Shown here: positions 20,025 to 25,209 of the stretch, one piece after another
Layout: the number at the start of each line of letters is the position of its first letter
Numbering within the stretch: position 1 is the first letter of the stretch
Origin: Terriglobia bacterium
Lineage (GTDB): Bacteria > Acidobacteriota > Terriglobia > Bryobacterales > Bryobacteraceae
Assembly: GCA_020073305.1 (NCBI GenBank)
Contig: JAIQFK010000039.1
Coordinates: 1 to 34,302, forward strand
DNA length: 34,302 nt
Direction of reading: 5' to 3'
Notes under the pieces: model-generated
Databases searched by the model: none
What the model saw: only the letters and a program-made list of their open reading frames with translations
What the model was told of the DNA's origin: nothing
Made by a program: the position numbers and the translations under genes

Positions 20025-20939
20025 CTACAGTTTTTGCCAGCGTGTACCCTCGAATGCCAGTGCGAAAGTCTCAGGGTGCAAGATCTCCGAAAGAATCTGC
20101 AGCGTCTCGACCAGCCTGGGGCCGGGCCGGTTGAAGTATTGATTTCCATCGGCAACATACACCCGACTGTTTTGCACGGCGCGCAGCCGGTGCCACTCGG
20201 GGTGCTCAGTCAACCAATACATCTGCTGCGCCGTTCGCGCCAGATCGAAGCCACACGGTGCGATTACGATCACATCGGGATCGGCCGTCACCAGTTCCGC
20301 CCACTGGAGGTATCCGGAATGCTTGCCCGGCTCGCCTAAGAGATTGACGCCGCCGGCCATTTCCACCAGTTCCGGCATCCAATTGCCCGCTGACATGAGC
20401 GGTTCCTGCCATTCGATGCAGGCCACTCGTGGACGCTCAAATGCGGCGCGAGCTTTCTCCGAAATCGCGCACATGCGCGCCTGCAACTGAGCAACGACGA
20501 CCTCGCCGTGCTCCGCGATTTCGAGCGCGCCCGCTACGCGGCGGATGTCGTCCCAAACGTGGGCCAGCGAATTCGGCGTGAGCGATATGATTTTCGGGCG
20601 GCTCGCAAGCCGCAAAGCTACCGAACGCTCCACGTCGCGCAGGCTCACCGCGCACACTTCGCACTGCGTCTGCGTGACGATGTGGGTGGGCTGCAGACGC
20701 TCCAGCACCTCGTCGAAAACCTCATAGACCGACAGCGCGTTGCGCACCCGGTCTTTCACCGCGCGATCAATCTCGCGGCTATCCGCGTGAATGTCGATAG
20801 TGGGCTTGGTGCAGACGGGCAGCGCCGCCGCCTCGAGCGGGAAATCGCACTCGTGTGAGCGGCCCACCTGGTTGGAAGTCTCTCCGAGCGCGTGAATGAT
20901 CTCGGTTGCGCTTGAGATCAGAGAGACGATACGGGGCAC
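20025..20939 (-). CDS. BtuF-like cobalamin-binding protein without signal peptide
   Basis: A 304-residue protein from GTG 20939, which overlaps the preceding gene by 22 nt. The sequence begins at once with the mature-type strand of BtuF/FepB-fold binding proteins (PRIVSLISSATEIIHALG), and continues with GRSHECDFP, PTHIVTQTQCEVCAVS, RVACIEWQEPLMSAGNWMPELVEMAGG and DPDVIVIAPCGFDLART. It has no signal peptide and no lipobox, and no upstream start would add one, because upstream lies coding sequence in another frame. So as read it is cytoplasmic, unlike E. coli BtuF, which works in the periplasm with BtuCD. It carries a Cys-x-x-Cys (CEVC). Its place at the end of the riboswitch operon supports cobalamin binding; a chaperone or scavenging role inside the cell is inference. 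Confidence 0.85.
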   Translation of the reverse strand: MPRIVSLISSATEIIHALGETSNQVGRSHECDFPLEAAALPVCTKPTIDIHADSREIDRAVKDRVRNALSVYEVFDEVLERLQPTHIVTQTQCEVCAVSLRDVERSVALRLASRPKIISLTPNSLAHVWDDIRRVAGALEIAEHGEVVVAQLQARMCAISEKARAAFERPRVACIEWQEPLMSAGNWMPELVEMAGGVNLLGEPGKHSGYLQWAELVTADPDVIVIAPCGFDLARTAQQMYWLTEHPEWHRLRAVQNSRVYVADGNQYFNRPGPRLVETLQILSEILHPETFALAFEGTRWQKL

Positions 20940-21589
20940 AGTAGATCGGCAAACGTGAAATCGCCGTCCTCATGGAGACTAACCGGTTCAACCGCGACGG
21001 GCCGGCTGAACATGGGACCGTCAAAGACGAAGGTGTGGAATTCGCCATTTTCACCGCAGGGATCGGCACCGGGTGGCAGATCCGCGAGAAATTTCGCGTC
21101 GAACTCCCTACCGGCGAAGGAGGTGTCCAAGACCTTTCGGTCGATGCACGCGACGCGAGCGCGCAAGCCACCGGCCAACATCTCCACGGCGAGAGCGCCG
21201 GTCGGCACATCCCACAGCGGAAAGATCGGCTCGAGACCCGTGCCTGAAAGCATCCTCTCCCGATAGGCGCGAATGTCGGCGAGGAACAGGTCTCCGAAAA
21301 CCACCAGCGTGATGCCTGAATTGACAGCTCGGCGGCACGCCTCCGCCATGACTTCTTCGTAGCGCCCGTTAGGGCAGGGCCACGGCAGCGGCGCCAACCA
21401 CAGCGGAATGCCGATTGAGCGGGCCTGCTCTTCGATCAATTCGCGGCGCACGCCGTGCATGGCGACGCGATCCGCCTTTTCATTGATCGTGGTGAGCAGG
21501 CCGACGACTTGGATGTCCGTCCCACGCAGCCGCTCAAGTGCCCAGGCGCAGTCTTTGCCGCCGCTCCAGGATAGAAGCGCGCGTCTCAA
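20918..21589 (-). CDS. DUF71/COG2102 ATP-pyrophosphatase (Dph6-like), probable B12-salvage type
   Basis: A 223-residue protein whose start I place at TTG 21589, overlapping the upstream stop (ttGA). A much longer open frame continues upstream but only as an antisense-like shadow of the next gene's sequence. The PP-loop is LLSWSGGKDCAWAL at residues about 5-18. Downstream family motifs are VVFGDLFLADIRAYRERML, GLEPIFPLW and the signature GENGEFHTFVFDGP near the C-terminus. In archaea and eukaryotes the family makes diphthamide, which bacteria lack. Published comparative genomics of DUF71/COG2102 proposed a second, B12-salvage group in bacteria, and this gene's operon fits that. The reaction (ATP-dependent amidation of a corrinoid side chain is one suggestion) is unproven. 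Confidence 0.85.
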   Translation of the reverse strand: MRRALLSWSGGKDCAWALERLRGTDIQVVGLLTTINEKADRVAMHGVRRELIEEQARSIGIPLWLAPLPWPCPNGRYEEVMAEACRRAVNSGITLVVFGDLFLADIRAYRERMLSGTGLEPIFPLWDVPTGALAVEMLAGGLRARVACIDRKVLDTSFAGREFDAKFLADLPPGADPCGENGEFHTFVFDGPMFSRPVAVEPVSLHEDGDFTFADLLCPVSSL

Positions 21590-22110
21590 GCGGTTTGCGG
21601 TACCCGCTCCGGCGTGTAGACCCTGCGGCTCAACCACGCATGCAGGCCGAACAGCACGCCGGTTGTCAGCAAGTCGCTCACCAGCGTTGGCGCGAAGAAT
21701 GGAAGCGCCATCGTGTAGCACTGCACGAATCCGGCCCAGGTGTGGGCATATCCGAACGCGAGCCATGTGCCGAAATTCGACAGCAGGAAAAACTGGACGC
21801 TGCAGAGCATCGCAGCCGCACCGATGCGCAGCGGACTCTCGGATTTCCGCAGCCGCCGGCCGATCCACACGTTGATCATGAAGCTCAGATAGATAAGCGG
21901 GGTGGCCCGGCTGTAGCCGCCGACCAGGGGGTCGGTGACGGCCATCAGCACGATGGGCAGCAGGTACGCCTGCCAGCCTCTCAGCCGTGCGCCGGCAAAC
22001 AAGCTCATGCCGCCCACGGGCGCAAAATTCCATGGGTGCGGTGCAAGGCGCGCCAGCGCCCCAGCTACCGTCAATGCCAATGCCAGCGGTCTTCGATTTA
22101 CGTTCTCCAT
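21586..22110 (-). CDS. DUF6580 membrane protein, candidate cobalamin transporter
   Basis: A 174-residue membrane protein from ATG 22110, with AAGGAG (on + 22116-22121) 5 nt upstream and directly after the preceding stop; the frame also opens further upstream. About five to six hydrophobic helices are visible, with family-type motifs LARLAPHPWNFAPVGGMSLF, YLLPIVLMAVTDPLVG, LLSNFGTWLAFG and a stretch ALPFFAPTLVSDLLTTGVLF. I recognise DUF6580, a family of unknown function whose size and helix layout resemble S components of ECF vitamin transporters. Position inside a B12 riboswitch operon, without BtuCD, makes it the best candidate for the inner-membrane step. That role is inference; an ECF energising module is not in the window. 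Confidence 0.8.
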   Translation of the reverse strand: MENVNRRPLALALTVAGALARLAPHPWNFAPVGGMSLFAGARLRGWQAYLLPIVLMAVTDPLVGGYSRATPLIYLSFMINVWIGRRLRKSESPLRIGAAAMLCSVQFFLLSNFGTWLAFGYAHTWAGFVQCYTMALPFFAPTLVSDLLTTGVLFGLHAWLSRRVYTPERVPQTA

Positions 22111-22120
22111 GCACTCTCCT

Positions 22121-22774
22121 TCAAGATCTATTGTCGCGCTGCCCGGAGGCGGCGCGGTTGGGTTCCCACAGAGTCTCCGCAACTCCTAGTGTATGACTGG
22201 CCCAGCGGCTCCAGACAAACAGGGCGTCACTCAGCCGGTTGAGATATCGGACGATCTCGCCGTCCACCGGCTCGCTGCGCGCCAGCGCCACACAGACGCG
22301 CTCAGCGCGGCGGCAGACCGTGCGGCAGACATGCAGCTCGGCATTCAAGCGGCAACCGCCCGGAAGCACGAACGAGCGCAGCGGGGGCAAGCCTTCGTTC
22401 ATCTTATCGATCTCGGCTTCGAGCTGCGCAATCTCCGCTTCCGTGACTCGCGCCTGCCGTGGATGCACATCCTCTGGAAGCGTCGCCAAAATCGAGCCGG
22501 CATTAAACAGCTCATGTTGCACGCGGTTCAGGATGGCGCCGAGTTGCGTGAGCGCCGGGTGGGCTGCAACCAGTTCCTGTGCGGTGTCGCGAGCCAGGCC
22601 GATCTGGGCATTCAGCTCGTCCACCGTACCGTAGGCGTCGATGCGCATAGCATCCTTGGGGATACGCTGCCCACCCGCCAGGCTGGTCTCGCCTTTGTCG
22701 CCGCCGCGCGTATAGACGCGATTGATGGCCAGCCGGGGTTGGTCGTACTTCACGTTCTCCATTCTCGCACTCAC
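22121..22774 (-). CDS. cobO: PduO-type cob(I)alamin adenosyltransferase
   Basis: A 217-residue protein. The start is GTG 22774, overlapping the receptor stop by 4 nt (GTGA); ATG 22762 is an alternative. PduO-type hallmarks are all present: the N-terminal ATP-binding YTRGGDKGETSL, RIDAYGTVDELNAQIGLAR, LPGGCRLNAELHVCRTVCRR and the C-terminal NRLSDALFVWSRWA. The enzyme transfers the 5'-deoxyadenosyl group of ATP to cob(I)alamin, giving adenosylcobalamin, which also feeds back on the riboswitch. By family it is PduO/MMAB rather than true CobA, so the symbol is generic. It is the only enzyme of coenzyme assembly in this operon, showing that the cell salvages corrinoids rather than making them here. 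Confidence 0.93.
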   Translation of the reverse strand: MSARMENVKYDQPRLAINRVYTRGGDKGETSLAGGQRIPKDAMRIDAYGTVDELNAQIGLARDTAQELVAAHPALTQLGAILNRVQHELFNAGSILATLPEDVHPRQARVTEAEIAQLEAEIDKMNEGLPPLRSFVLPGGCRLNAELHVCRTVCRRAERVCVALARSEPVDGEIVRYLNRLSDALFVWSRWASHTLGVAETLWEPNRAASGQRDNRS

Positions 22775-24951
22775 TTAGACGGTGAAAAGGTCCACTTCAC
22801 ACCGCTCACAAAATTCAGAAGCGGCGAGGGGAAGCCCAGAGCCTCTTCGTAGCGCCAGTTCAGGGCATTGCGCAAGTTTCCATAGAGCGTCACCCCACGC
22901 GTGAGCGCGTAATTCACGTTCAGGCCGAAATTCGCGAAACCGGGATTATAGAACACGCCGTAAGCCGGACCATAATTCGGTTCGACATCGAGGGCCTTTC
23001 CCCGAAAATAACCAGTCGCATTCGCCGAAAGCTTGCCGCGCGAGAACGTAGCGACCATCGTGCCCGAGTGCCGCGGCCTTCGCGCCAGCGGCTGCCCCAC
23101 CACGAAATATTGTGGAGCGAGATTGGTCGAGCCCCTGAGCGACAATATTTCGGAATCGAGAAATGTGTATGCGCCCGCCACAGAAATCCACCGCGCCGGC
23201 CGGAAGCGCACGGCGAATTCCGCTCCCTGCGCGCGTGAGTTGGCCAGGTTATCCGACTGGAAGCTGCTCAGATGCGTGAGCGAACCTCCCAGTACAACGA
23301 TCAAGTCGTAATAGCGGTTGTAGAAGTACGTAGCGTCCAGTGAGACGTGATTGTGGAACAGCCGCTGTTCGATCCCCGCGTCGAAACTTGCGGTGCGCTC
23401 GGGTTGCAGACGCGGATTATCGGTGAAGGCCAGCTCAAATCCGGACGGCGGGCGAATGCCGGTGCCGGCGGAGACGTGCAGTCGCGTACCTTCCCGCAGT
23501 GCGTATGCTACGGCGAGCTTGGGATTCAGTTTCAAGATCGTGTCCCGCGGGAATTCGGGACGCCCGACCACCGGGTCCGCGGCGATGCGGCCGGTTTGAA
23601 TGATCTCCTCACGCGCCCCCGCGTTCACGAATAGCCGGCCGCCGAATTCGAAGCGGTTCTCCCAATAGATTCCTTGTTGATTGCGCTCAAGAGGGAAAAC
23701 GCCGGCGCTGGGGTCGTTGATATATGTATTCCTGAGTTCCTCCCGCGCGAAGGCGTAACCGAATGCCATGGTGTAATGCGATGTCACGCTCAGCACCGTG
23801 CGCTCTTCCAGTTGTCCACGATAGTTGTCGTTGTAACTGTCGCCGTATGGGCTAACGTAGAAGCTGTTGCTCCAGAAGATGCTTGCGAACAGCTCCTGGC
23901 GCACCCGCGGTGTGGCATCGATCTGGTAGTGCGCCCCATAGTTGGACAGGTTGACGCGGCTGCGGCTGATGAGGTCGAGGCCGGTGAAAAGATGTGCCGG
24001 GTCGGAGCCGTACGGCCCCGGCTCTCCGACGTCGCTCGCGTTGAAGTTGCCGTTCGCCGCGAAACTCTGCCGGCCGGTGTTGTGTGTCAGTGTGAGGAAC
24101 AGGTTCTGGTTGTGGTAGTCGCCGTTGGCCACCGGGCCATCATCATCCAGGCGAGAGAGGTAGGCCCCGATTCCGAAGCCGCGCAGCGTGCCCGAGCCTC
24201 CCAGACCAAAGCGCCGCTCATAGTGGCTGCCGCCTTCGGCCAACGCCTCGAATTCCGCGTTCTCCTGGGGCGATCGCGTAACGAAATTCACCACGCCGCT
24301 GTTGGCGTATGCCCCGTAGACGGCCGACTGCGGCCCTCGAATCACTTCTATGTGATCCAGGAAGTCCGTGGGGACGTGGGCGAAATCGACGATTCCGCCG
24401 AACCAGTCGATGGGGACTCCATTGATCTCCACCAGATTGAAGTCGTAATCCCCACCGCGCATGAACACCGATGCCTGCGCACCACGCGCGCCGGTTGCCG
24501 CCACGCTGAGGCCGGGCAGGTACCGGATCAGGTCGATGGCCTGCGCTTCGTTGCGCCCGGCGATCTCTTCGCGCGGAATGATGCTTACACTTGACCCCTG
24601 CTGGCTGAGCGGGATATCCATAGTCGAGCCCGCAACGGTAACCGAATCATCCTGCGGCGCAATGGCGAGCGTGATGACCCCCGCCTGCGCCAACGGTACA
24701 GACTTGGTCTCGAAGCCTGGAGCCGTCACCAACAAATTCGCGCCGATGCCATCCGCCACCGAAACCTGAAATGCGCCCGCCGCATCGCTCACGGCCTGCG
24801 CCATCACTCCCACACGGTTGACGGCCGCCACGCGCGCGCCGGGGATGACTGCGCCGGACGGATCGACAACTTTACCTTGGACGGTTTCTGCCTGCGTCAT
24901 GGCCGCGGCGCACAACAGAAAAAGCAAAGAGAATGTGAGTGGACGTGTCAT
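22771..24951 (-). CDS. btuB: BtuB-like TonB-dependent cobalamin receptor
   Basis: A 726-residue outer-membrane receptor from ATG 24951. The signal peptide is MTRPLTFSLLFLLCAAAMTQA. A carboxypeptidase-regulatory-like domain follows (VQGKVVDPSGAVIPGARVAA), then the plug with ISLIP-type SVSIIPREEIAGRNEAQ, RYLPGLSV, MRGGDYDFNLVEINGVPID and IEVIRGPQSAVYGAYANSGV, then a 22-strand-type barrel ending near VKWTF. The GGDYDFNLV element resembles the vitamin-binding apical loop region of BtuB plugs only loosely. Assignment to cobalamin rests mainly on the riboswitch directly upstream. It heads the operon and its start is inside a translation-control hairpin. Confidence 0.85.
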   Translation of the reverse strand: MTRPLTFSLLFLLCAAAMTQAETVQGKVVDPSGAVIPGARVAAVNRVGVMAQAVSDAAGAFQVSVADGIGANLLVTAPGFETKSVPLAQAGVITLAIAPQDDSVTVAGSTMDIPLSQQGSSVSIIPREEIAGRNEAQAIDLIRYLPGLSVAATGARGAQASVFMRGGDYDFNLVEINGVPIDWFGGIVDFAHVPTDFLDHIEVIRGPQSAVYGAYANSGVVNFVTRSPQENAEFEALAEGGSHYERRFGLGGSGTLRGFGIGAYLSRLDDDGPVANGDYHNQNLFLTLTHNTGRQSFAANGNFNASDVGEPGPYGSDPAHLFTGLDLISRSRVNLSNYGAHYQIDATPRVRQELFASIFWSNSFYVSPYGDSYNDNYRGQLEERTVLSVTSHYTMAFGYAFAREELRNTYINDPSAGVFPLERNQQGIYWENRFEFGGRLFVNAGAREEIIQTGRIAADPVVGRPEFPRDTILKLNPKLAVAYALREGTRLHVSAGTGIRPPSGFELAFTDNPRLQPERTASFDAGIEQRLFHNHVSLDATYFYNRYYDLIVVLGGSLTHLSSFQSDNLANSRAQGAEFAVRFRPARWISVAGAYTFLDSEILSLRGSTNLAPQYFVVGQPLARRPRHSGTMVATFSRGKLSANATGYFRGKALDVEPNYGPAYGVFYNPGFANFGLNVNYALTRGVTLYGNLRNALNWRYEEALGFPSPLLNFVSGVKWTFSPSK

Positions 24952-24956
24952 GGTCA

Positions 24957-24973
24957 GGCAGCCCTCCGCTGCC
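24957..24973 (-). promoter_or_regulatory. Hairpin holding the btuB Shine-Dalgarno in its loop
   Basis: On the - strand GGCAGC (24968-24973) and GCTGCC (24957-24962) form a perfect 6-bp stem whose 5-nt loop is exactly GGAGG (24963-24967). The btuB ATG lies 11 nt beyond. This is the only Shine-Dalgarno for btuB, and the hairpin would hide or present it, fitting riboswitch control of translation. Confidence 0.65.
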
Positions 24974-24996
24974 GGATTTCACGCCCTGAAATGGGC

Positions 24997-25034
24997 TCAG
25001 CATGTGGTCTGGCGCAGCGCCAGATTCATGCTGA
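24997..25034 (-). promoter_or_regulatory. Nested stem-loop in the riboswitch expression platform
   Basis: Two nested dyads: TCAGCATG / CATGCTGA (outer, 24997-25004 and 25027-25034) and TCTGGCGC / GCGCCAGA (inner, 25008-25015 and 25017-25024), separated by short internal loops. There is no T-run after it, so it is not an intrinsic terminator. It lies between the aptamer and the SD hairpin and probably is part of the switching structure. Confidence 0.65.
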
Positions 25035-25035
25035 A

Positions 25036-25195
25036 TCCCGTCGGTCGGTCTCCTGACTTCGCGCTTCAACGGGCCGGCCGGCCTTCCCATTCCGTGCGGA
25101 ACAGTGGCTGAATTGACCGGTCCTCCACGCTCACAGTGGCGGGGCCGTGCTGGATTTTCACCAGCTTCCCGTACTTCTCACCGCGGGCTTCCAGG
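25036..25195 (-). ncRNA. Cobalamin (AdoCbl-type) riboswitch
   Basis: Reading the - strand, the landmarks of the cobalamin riboswitch appear in order: GGGAAGCTGGTGAAAATCCAGC, shown here as GGGAAGCTGG then TGAAAATCCAGC; ACGGCCCCGCCACTGTGA; a second GCCACTG (+ 25102-25108); and the B12 box AAGCGCGAAGTCAGGAGACC (+ 25047-25066). The boundaries are set by a possible CCCG/CGGG P1 stem and are approximate. It controls btuB and the four genes overlapping after it. Binding of cobalamin should reduce expression, most likely by translation, given the SD hairpin downstream. Confidence 0.96.
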
Positions 25196-25203
25196 ACTTT
25201 TCG

Positions 25204-25209
25204 AGCATA
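25204..25209 (-). promoter_or_regulatory. Candidate -10 box for the B12 operon
   Basis: TATGCT on the - strand, preceded by TGA (TGATATGCT), matches an extended -10 element and would start transcription near 25197, at the first bases of the riboswitch. No convincing -35 was found. Confidence 0.4.

Follow-up and report, generated by a model that had tools for sequence, protein, structure and literature searches.

In many bacteria that possess B12 enzymes and a receptor for the vitamin, no importer for the inner membrane is known. How corrinoids enter such a cell is the question raised by a stretch of DNA of 34,302 nucleotides (the window) from a Terriglobia bacterium of the Acidobacteriota (assembly GCA_020073305.1, contig JAIQFK010000039.1). 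On its minus strand, from position 25200 to position 20025, a single cobalamin riboswitch is followed by a compact series of five genes, which encode in this order a TonB-dependent receptor, a PduO-type cob(I)alamin adenosyltransferase, a membrane protein of family DUF6580, a DUF71 ATPase and a BtuF-like protein. The whole is probably best explained as a B12-regulated uptake and activation unit, in which DUF6580 would act as a motor-free inner-membrane carrier.

The operon and its DUF6580 membrane protein

The DUF6580 protein (174 amino acids, positions 21586..22110, minus strand like the other features) matched PF20221 with an E-value of 8.1e-46 (156.6 bits against a curated cut-off of 27). 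Upstream of it, the cobalamin riboswitch aptamer RF00174 lies at 25025..25200 (Rfam, E 2.4e-24; its 101 bits exceed the gathering score of 31.5) and is the only match to this family in the genome, which comprises 6.98 Mb and is 99.89% complete. The riboswitch is followed by the TonB-dependent receptor (726 amino acids, 22771..24951; PF00593, 3.7e-38; PF07715, 1.1e-19), which bears an N-terminal carboxypeptidase-regulatory-like domain and whose best NCBIfam model is the TonB B12 receptor TIGR01779 (146.8 bits, below the cut-off of 599.7). The adenosyltransferase comes next (217 amino acids, 22121..22774; PF01923, 2.5e-61; TIGR00636, 177.5 bits, above the cut-off of 108.45). The order from the riboswitch to the BtuF-like gene, as given in a preliminary description of the locus, was confirmed with Rfam, Pfam and NCBIfam. 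The spacings from gene to gene are -4, +10, -4 and -22 nt, the DUF71 start being set at a TTG that overlaps the DUF6580 stop; the close packing described earlier holds for the first three junctions, but the last overlap is 22 nt and not a few bases.

Eight matches to B12-binding domains were found in the genome, six of them above the cut-off. Four of these proteins could be named: MetH (partial in the fetched stretch, 843 bits, below the cut-off of 1010.85), the methylmalonyl-CoA mutase C-terminal subunit and HpnJ (both above cut-off), and an MtgC-like corrinoid protein (below cut-off). BtuC and BtuD are absent from the operon, as had been stated, and no permease of the BtuC-type FecCD family was found in the genome by a search that was positive in 13 of 14 control genomes, so that a BtuCD system elsewhere was rejected. 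An importer of the BacA type was rejected as well, ABC_membrane_2 (PF06472) giving no match in the genome and a match in only 2 of the 14 controls. The survey of EcfT proteins, made in this genome, yielded a single CbiQ/EcfT match, located inside a CbiM-CbiQ-ABC (ATP-binding cassette) ATPase unit adjoining a NikR gene (Pfam). Because it has its own CbiM and NikR next door, this unit is probably a dedicated nickel or cobalt transporter; no B12-type energy-coupling factor (ECF) transporter was found in the genome, and this candidate was rejected too. Since B12 enzymes are present but no known importer was found, DUF6580 is the likely inner-membrane importer. The missing FecCD and BacA-type matches, together with the recurrence of DUF6580 beside B12 genes (see below), support the earlier suggestion that it stands in for BtuCD.

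The AlphaFold2 model of DUF6580, built on an alignment of 78 sequences, has six helices (pLDDT 92.2, pTM 0.87). When it was compared with the PDB by Foldseek, the first three matches were the ECF S-components 4huq_S, 6zg3_C and 5d0y_A (probability 0.98-1.00, TM 0.51-0.57), and a RibU and another folate ECF chain stood lower in the list. The predicted fold, with its six predicted helices, is S-component-like. A search of all PDB sequences with the family profile gave a single match at E<=10, 6fnp_A (E 0.096, residues 5-87), which is ECF-CbrT, a B12 transporter of Lactobacillus delbrueckii (PMC5997447; this and the other papers are cited from the parts available). All 78 members scanned matched DUF6580 in Pfam; among the S-component families, PF12822 was touched by only one of them (E 0.18) and the riboflavin S-component family PF07155 by two (best E 0.004), and further weak contacts included 7TM-7TMR_HD (three members) and 5TMR-LYT (one). 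A 19-residue hydropathy peak above 1.6 was present in 136 of 146 members, the window protein peaking at 1.52, which fits a putative membrane protein.

Several positions of the family are near-invariant, namely R21 (145/146), H25 (137/146), N28 (139/146) and D60 (144/145), and N112 (144/144), Y121 (140/144), G127 (143/144) and P137 (143/144) are also conserved. No cysteine is invariant among the 146 members: at position 131, 118 of 144 have C and the others mostly S or A. We infer that His25 may serve as a cobalt ligand. No mention of DUF6580 or PF20221 was found in the open-access papers searched.

DUF6580 and BtuC-type permeases in the phylum

DISPLACEMENT of BtuCD was followed in 297 genomes of the phylum, of which 39 had DUF6580 (G095 only as a fragment) and 261 had FecCD. 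Strong FecCD matches (E<1e-25, a threshold chosen after the list had been viewed) occurred in 9 of the 39 genomes with DUF6580 as compared to 242 of the 258 without it (Fisher p 1e-21, ignoring relatedness). At the looser threshold of E<=0.001 the direction was the same (15/39 versus 246/258). Weak matches (E ~1e-13 to 1e-4, mostly from about profile position 80) were taken to be cross-matches of other permeases. At the family level, strong FecCD was missing from the DUF6580 genomes of 7 of 12 families (f1, f11, f30, f40, f60, f74 and f2, in the last from 20 of the 23 such genomes), whereas only two of the 68 families without DUF6580 (f59 and f64) lacked strong FecCD. The p value of this contrast was 8e-6, and 2e-4 when f1 and f2 were left out.

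The FecCD proteins of genomes without DUF6580 appear often to be BtuC. In six of seven such genomes (G009, G027, G053, G125, G202 and G187) FecCD and a cobalamin riboswitch are no more than about 5 kb apart; for the seventh, G001, the place of FecCD was not listed. The clearest case of a swap is found inside genus g2, where G187, which lacks DUF6580, carries riboswitch, BtuF-like gene, ABC ATPase and FecCD one after the other, while in G289, which lacks FecCD, the riboswitch precedes a TonB receptor and DUF6580 stands at another place. The riboswitch region was examined in ten genomes of family f2, which belongs to the same class as g2; it held a TonB receptor in eight of them, with DUF6580 standing elsewhere. 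The exceptions were G023, whose stretch ended at the riboswitch, and G036, whose cobalamin riboswitch region (L137) carries an NrdJ-like ribonucleotide reductase gene instead. Six f2 genomes have riboswitches but neither FecCD nor DUF6580. The one examined, G094, probably needs no B12 import, since genes for making cobalamin (CobB/CobQ-type, CobT-type, CobS, CobN and TP methylase) are located in its riboswitch regions. This comparative evidence gives good support to the predicted replacement of BtuCD by DUF6580.

Gene neighbourhoods across phyla and in the Candidate Phyla Radiation

Gene neighbourhoods were examined in the named loci, which are the best 80 of 400 DUF6580 relatives; within these, the closest relatives of the window protein came from Acidobacteria such as Bryobacterales. 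A B12 neighbour was defined as a pattern-found riboswitch or a gene for a TonB receptor, PduO, DUF71, cytoplasmic BtuF-like protein or NrdJ, lying on the same strand at a distance of up to about 4 kb. At least one was present in 58 of the 80 loci (18/18 in L052-L069, 2/17 in L070-L086 and 38/45 in L087-L131), TonB receptors alone weighing little as they are common in such genomes. Some rows of A1 and A3 derive from shared genomes. The riboswitch pattern was home-made, based on the B12-box consensus, and Rfam was run on part of the loci; it found riboswitches that the pattern had missed in L097, L120 and L090, and the pattern gave doubtful extras (e.g. L036, L037 and L045).

In a first set, Rfam found cobalamin riboswitches in 9 of 9 loci, with hosts from Rokubacteriota (L096), Rhodospirillaceae (L104), Halieaceae (L105), a gammaproteobacterium (L122), planctomycetes (L124 and L125), Acidobacteria (L089 and L101) and a genome labelled betaproteobacterium (L094). 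A second set gave 6 of 11, from Kordiimonas (L097), Ignavibacteriaceae (L090 and L120) and the Candidate Phyla Radiation, or CPR (L088, L112 and L114); no cobalamin riboswitch was found in L099, L106, L113, L116 and L123. Recurrence of DUF6580 with B12 genes, on which the earlier proposal depended, was found in several phyla, and the family is spread more widely than could be seen from the window. The loci L092 (labelled Nevskia soli) and L094 (Betaproteobacteria), both BOG_genome_mining, closely resemble acidobacterial ones, which gene transfer or mislabelled bins would explain. In another arrangement (L089, L091, L093-L095, L100, L102, L103, L107-L109 and L117-L119), the TonB receptor has DUF71-DUF6580 on its downstream side and a FecCD gene some 4-5 kb upstream. 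The majority of these loci are labelled acidobacterial gp2, and in L094 a GatB gene comes after DUF6580.

In the phylum of a Roizmanbacteria genome (G328, locus L099), DUF6580 was found in 105 of 379 genomes, 103 of them above cut-off. Forty CPR loci were then considered, taken as every second best-ranked place, a sample that leans to stronger matches. Within about 6 kb of DUF6580, 27 of them have NrdJ, a B12-dependent-type ribonucleotide reductase (weak in L234, 5e-06), 28 an adenosyltransferase (21 of CobA type and 7 of PduO type) and 31 a DUF4430 protein; at least one of the three is present in 39. The DUF4430 and CobA counts were made with profiles seeded from five loci, the seeds being confirmed by Pfam. 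These neighbours share the strand of DUF6580 with the sole exception of the PduO gene of L222. Chance synteny was rejected, about 0.5 of 40 being expected for a single-copy gene as against the 27 NrdJ neighbours observed. For the class II reductase, confirmation came from NCBIfam in L099, L114, L115 and L121 and from Pfam in L209. Rfam riboswitches of the cobalamin clan were found in six of the 40 loci (L199, L204, L205, L208, L226 and L230) and not in the other 34, and in four of seven named CPR loci (L088, L112, L114 and L115; not L099, L110 and L121). Their place is upstream of the DUF4430-DUF6580 genes, with two exceptions: the match in L088, which is downstream, and one of the two in L230.

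Across L197-L236, L088, L099, L112, L114, L115 and L121 a unit NrdJ - CobA/PduO - DUF4430 - DUF6580 recurs, sometimes with a cobalamin or AdoCbl-II riboswitch, which would bring B12 capture, import, activation and use together. DUF4430 is the C-terminal domain of vertebrate transcobalamins (PMC4350170), and bacterial transcobalamin-like domains have been proposed to bind soluble ligands including B12 (PMC1796856). The DUF4430 protein adjoining DUF6580 in CPR could be a B12 catcher like these transcobalamin-like SLBB/DUF4430 proteins, which are absent from the window operon. The DUF4430-DUF6580 pairing was not found in the literature searched, including the available parts of both papers, and no literature joining B12, ribonucleotide reductase and a transporter in CPR was found. 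DUF71 and the BtuF-like protein were not found in the 40 CPR loci, and the latter is therefore placed outside the minimal system. Taken together, the evidence tilts towards DUF6580 proteins being unrecognised, widespread, motor-free B12 importers, which in Gram-negative bacteria would replace BtuCD behind a TonB receptor and, in CPR, would form with a DUF4430 catcher, sometimes under riboswitch control, a minimal uptake system feeding adenosyltransferase and NrdJ.

Proposed mechanism, accessory proteins and rival explanations

In the proposed mechanism, the TonB receptor would bring corrinoids through the outer membrane and DUF6580 would then take them through the inner one with neither an ABC nor an ECF motor, in the way suggested for BtuM. 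PduO would then adenosylate the corrinoid inside, both trapping it and making the coenzyme, while handling or modification of the incoming corrinoid would fall to the DUF71 ATPase and to the cytoplasmic BtuF-fold protein with its four cysteines. In CPR bacteria, the partners of DUF6580 are the B12-dependent ribonucleotide reductase, an adenosyltransferase and the transcobalamin-like protein.

The S-component-like protein BtuM of Thiobacillus denitrificans (PDB 6FFV) is reported to enable uptake of B12 by E. coli, a host devoid of an ECF module, and the authors of that study suggest facilitated diffusion with trapping by a co-localised BtuR adenosyltransferase (PMC6072759). Like BtuM, DUF6580 is predicted to be a small membrane protein of the six-helix type with an S-component-like fold; BtuM also occurs where BtuCD is missing and is linked to a TonB receptor and an adenosyltransferase gene, and in the window an adenosyltransferase is likewise next door and BtuCD is lacking. 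The two differ in sequence, 6FFV not being among the PDB matches of the DUF6580 profile at E<=10, and BtuM has an invariant cobalt-ligating cysteine, whereas DUF6580 has no invariant cysteine but the near-invariant His25. Independence from ECF was shown for BtuM in E. coli and is proposed for DUF6580, which by analogy probably acts without an ECF motor. BtuCDF, to which the same job is assigned and which in sister genomes (G187, for example) is likewise controlled by this kind of riboswitch, differs as an ABC transporter with a periplasmic binding protein. From sequence comparison and modelling, DUF6580 most likely adds a new family to a class already known, that of B12 importers which resemble S-components and work alone; the wholly new kind of B12 transport suggested in the preliminary description is probably not what the operon encodes.

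The BtuF-like protein (304 amino acids, 20025..20939; PF01497, 3e-17) is matched by the Peripla_BP_2 profile from position 1 at the protein start, with no added leader visible. This was judged by reading and hydropathy, a crude check, and its relatives begin at the same place, their exact starts not being set. The lack of a signal peptide noted earlier thus stands. The protein appears to be cytoplasmic and so would not feed a transporter from the periplasm; a role as periplasmic binding protein was rejected. Its AlphaFold2 model (pLDDT 92.0) had 2r7a_B as best Foldseek match, with the BtuF entries 5ysc and 1n4a among the matches, which suggests the fold of heme- and B12-binding proteins. Cysteines C31, C93 and C96 are invariant in 22 of 22 sequences and C229 in 18 of 18, and this four-cysteine protein is possibly corrinoid-handling, decyanating or metal-binding. 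The relatives also have invariant H29, W177 and W187-type positions, and no known BtuF role accounts for these or for the four cysteines.

The DUF71/COG2102 protein (223 amino acids, 20918..21589; PF01902, 1.2e-28) is a PP-loop ATPase with the motif ENGEFH. The ENGEF/YH motif, in place of EGGE/DxE, defines the DUF71-B12 subgroup (PMC3541065), and a diphthamide role was rejected on this ground. In 2012 this subgroup, whose genes also lie in B12 neighbourhoods, was proposed to replace CbiZ, yielding cobyric acid for CbiB (PMC3541065). A B12 salvage role had thus already been predicted, and the earlier suggestion that DUF71 adds a step beyond textbook salvage is not supported as worded; DUF6580 is not named in the available text of that paper. 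CbiB (PF03186) had no match in the genome and was found in 8 of 14 controls, other B12 biosynthesis genes not being searched for. The CbiZ-replacement role does not fit a genome where CbiB was not found, and a DUF71-B12 gene in a host with neither a CbiB match nor BtuCDF speaks against the published idea, at least in this genome. The salvage half of the operon interpretation is weak.

Several observations weigh against DUF6580 as a stand-alone B12 importer. Binding and transport of B12 are a candidate function, drawn from comparison and a model. The Foldseek E-values of the three S-component matches are weak (0.085-0.39), and the CbrT profile match is marginal, a hint rather than proof. Isolated DUF6580 genes are common, 22 of the 80 named loci having no B12 neighbour inside 4 kb. 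Strong FecCD coexists with DUF6580 in the 9 phylum genomes given above and in 9 of 50 genomes picked by the authors from those behind the named loci (25 of 50 at E<=0.001). FecCD also adjoins DUF6580 in L042 and in 14 of the 80 named loci, mostly of the acidobacterial type labelled gp2, 11 of these 14 being among the 30 loci outside the 50-genome set, so that at least 20 of the 80 genomes have both systems. In such genomes DUF6580 may have another or an additional role, and since they carry both, replacement of BtuCD appears common but not universal. Finally, G131 and G148 have riboswitches yet neither transporter, and another importer or incomplete assemblies are possible there. Their riboswitch regions (L164 and L166, respectively) were seen with DUF71 or with a TonB receptor.

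One EcfT protein and one ABC ATPase do exist in the genome itself, and DUF6580 could be an ATP-driven S-component borrowing these CbiQ/CbiO-type proteins or another EcfT module, in the manner of CbrT. The S-component-like fold and the marginal resemblance to CbrT, also a B12 S-component, would agree with this, as would the finding that solitary CbrT gave no growth support without its module (PMC5997447). However, the only EcfT unit looks metal-dedicated, and the AxxxA motif that docks S-components onto the ECF module (PMC11109136) occurs in any position in only 26 of 146 DUF6580 members, with no fixed register; a conserved docking motif was thus not found, although the window protein itself carries AxxxA in helix 1. 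With no B12-type module found either, a borrowed motor is unlikely. The loci and genomes that hold both DUF6580 and BtuC-type genes would be accounted for if DUF6580 carried a metal or a related or partial corrinoid (cobinamide, the lower-ligand base or its nucleoside) beside another importer. This is quite unlikely, as strong FecCD is missing from 30 of the 39 phylum genomes with DUF6580, so that something must import B12, and the CPR neighbours are adenosyltransferase and the B12 enzyme itself; moreover, partial corrinoids that require CbiB would be of little use in a genome without a CbiB match. That the operon is a salvage unit, in which DUF71 replaces CbiZ to convert foreign cobamides into cobyric acid and DUF6580 merely supports it, is very improbable. 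DUF71-B12 genes do adjoin B12 transporter genes in 75 of 102 cases or cbiB in 18 of 102 (PMC3541065), and the window protein has the subgroup motif, but cobyric acid would have no onward route without CbiB, and the DUF71 and BtuF-like genes were not found in the CPR loci.

As a solitary carrier, DUF6580 is a candidate B12 importer for a good part of the Acidobacteriota and, in one CPR phylum, for roughly one in four of the genomes sampled, and if this is true it would explain the absence of BtuC from those genomes. A family of unknown function is tied to B12 through its predicted fold, its mutual exclusion with BtuC, riboswitches and gene neighbours. For CPR cells it would mean that DNA precursor synthesis depends on scavenged B12, and the finding points to a specific way in which ultra-small bacteria may rely on other organisms for their B12.

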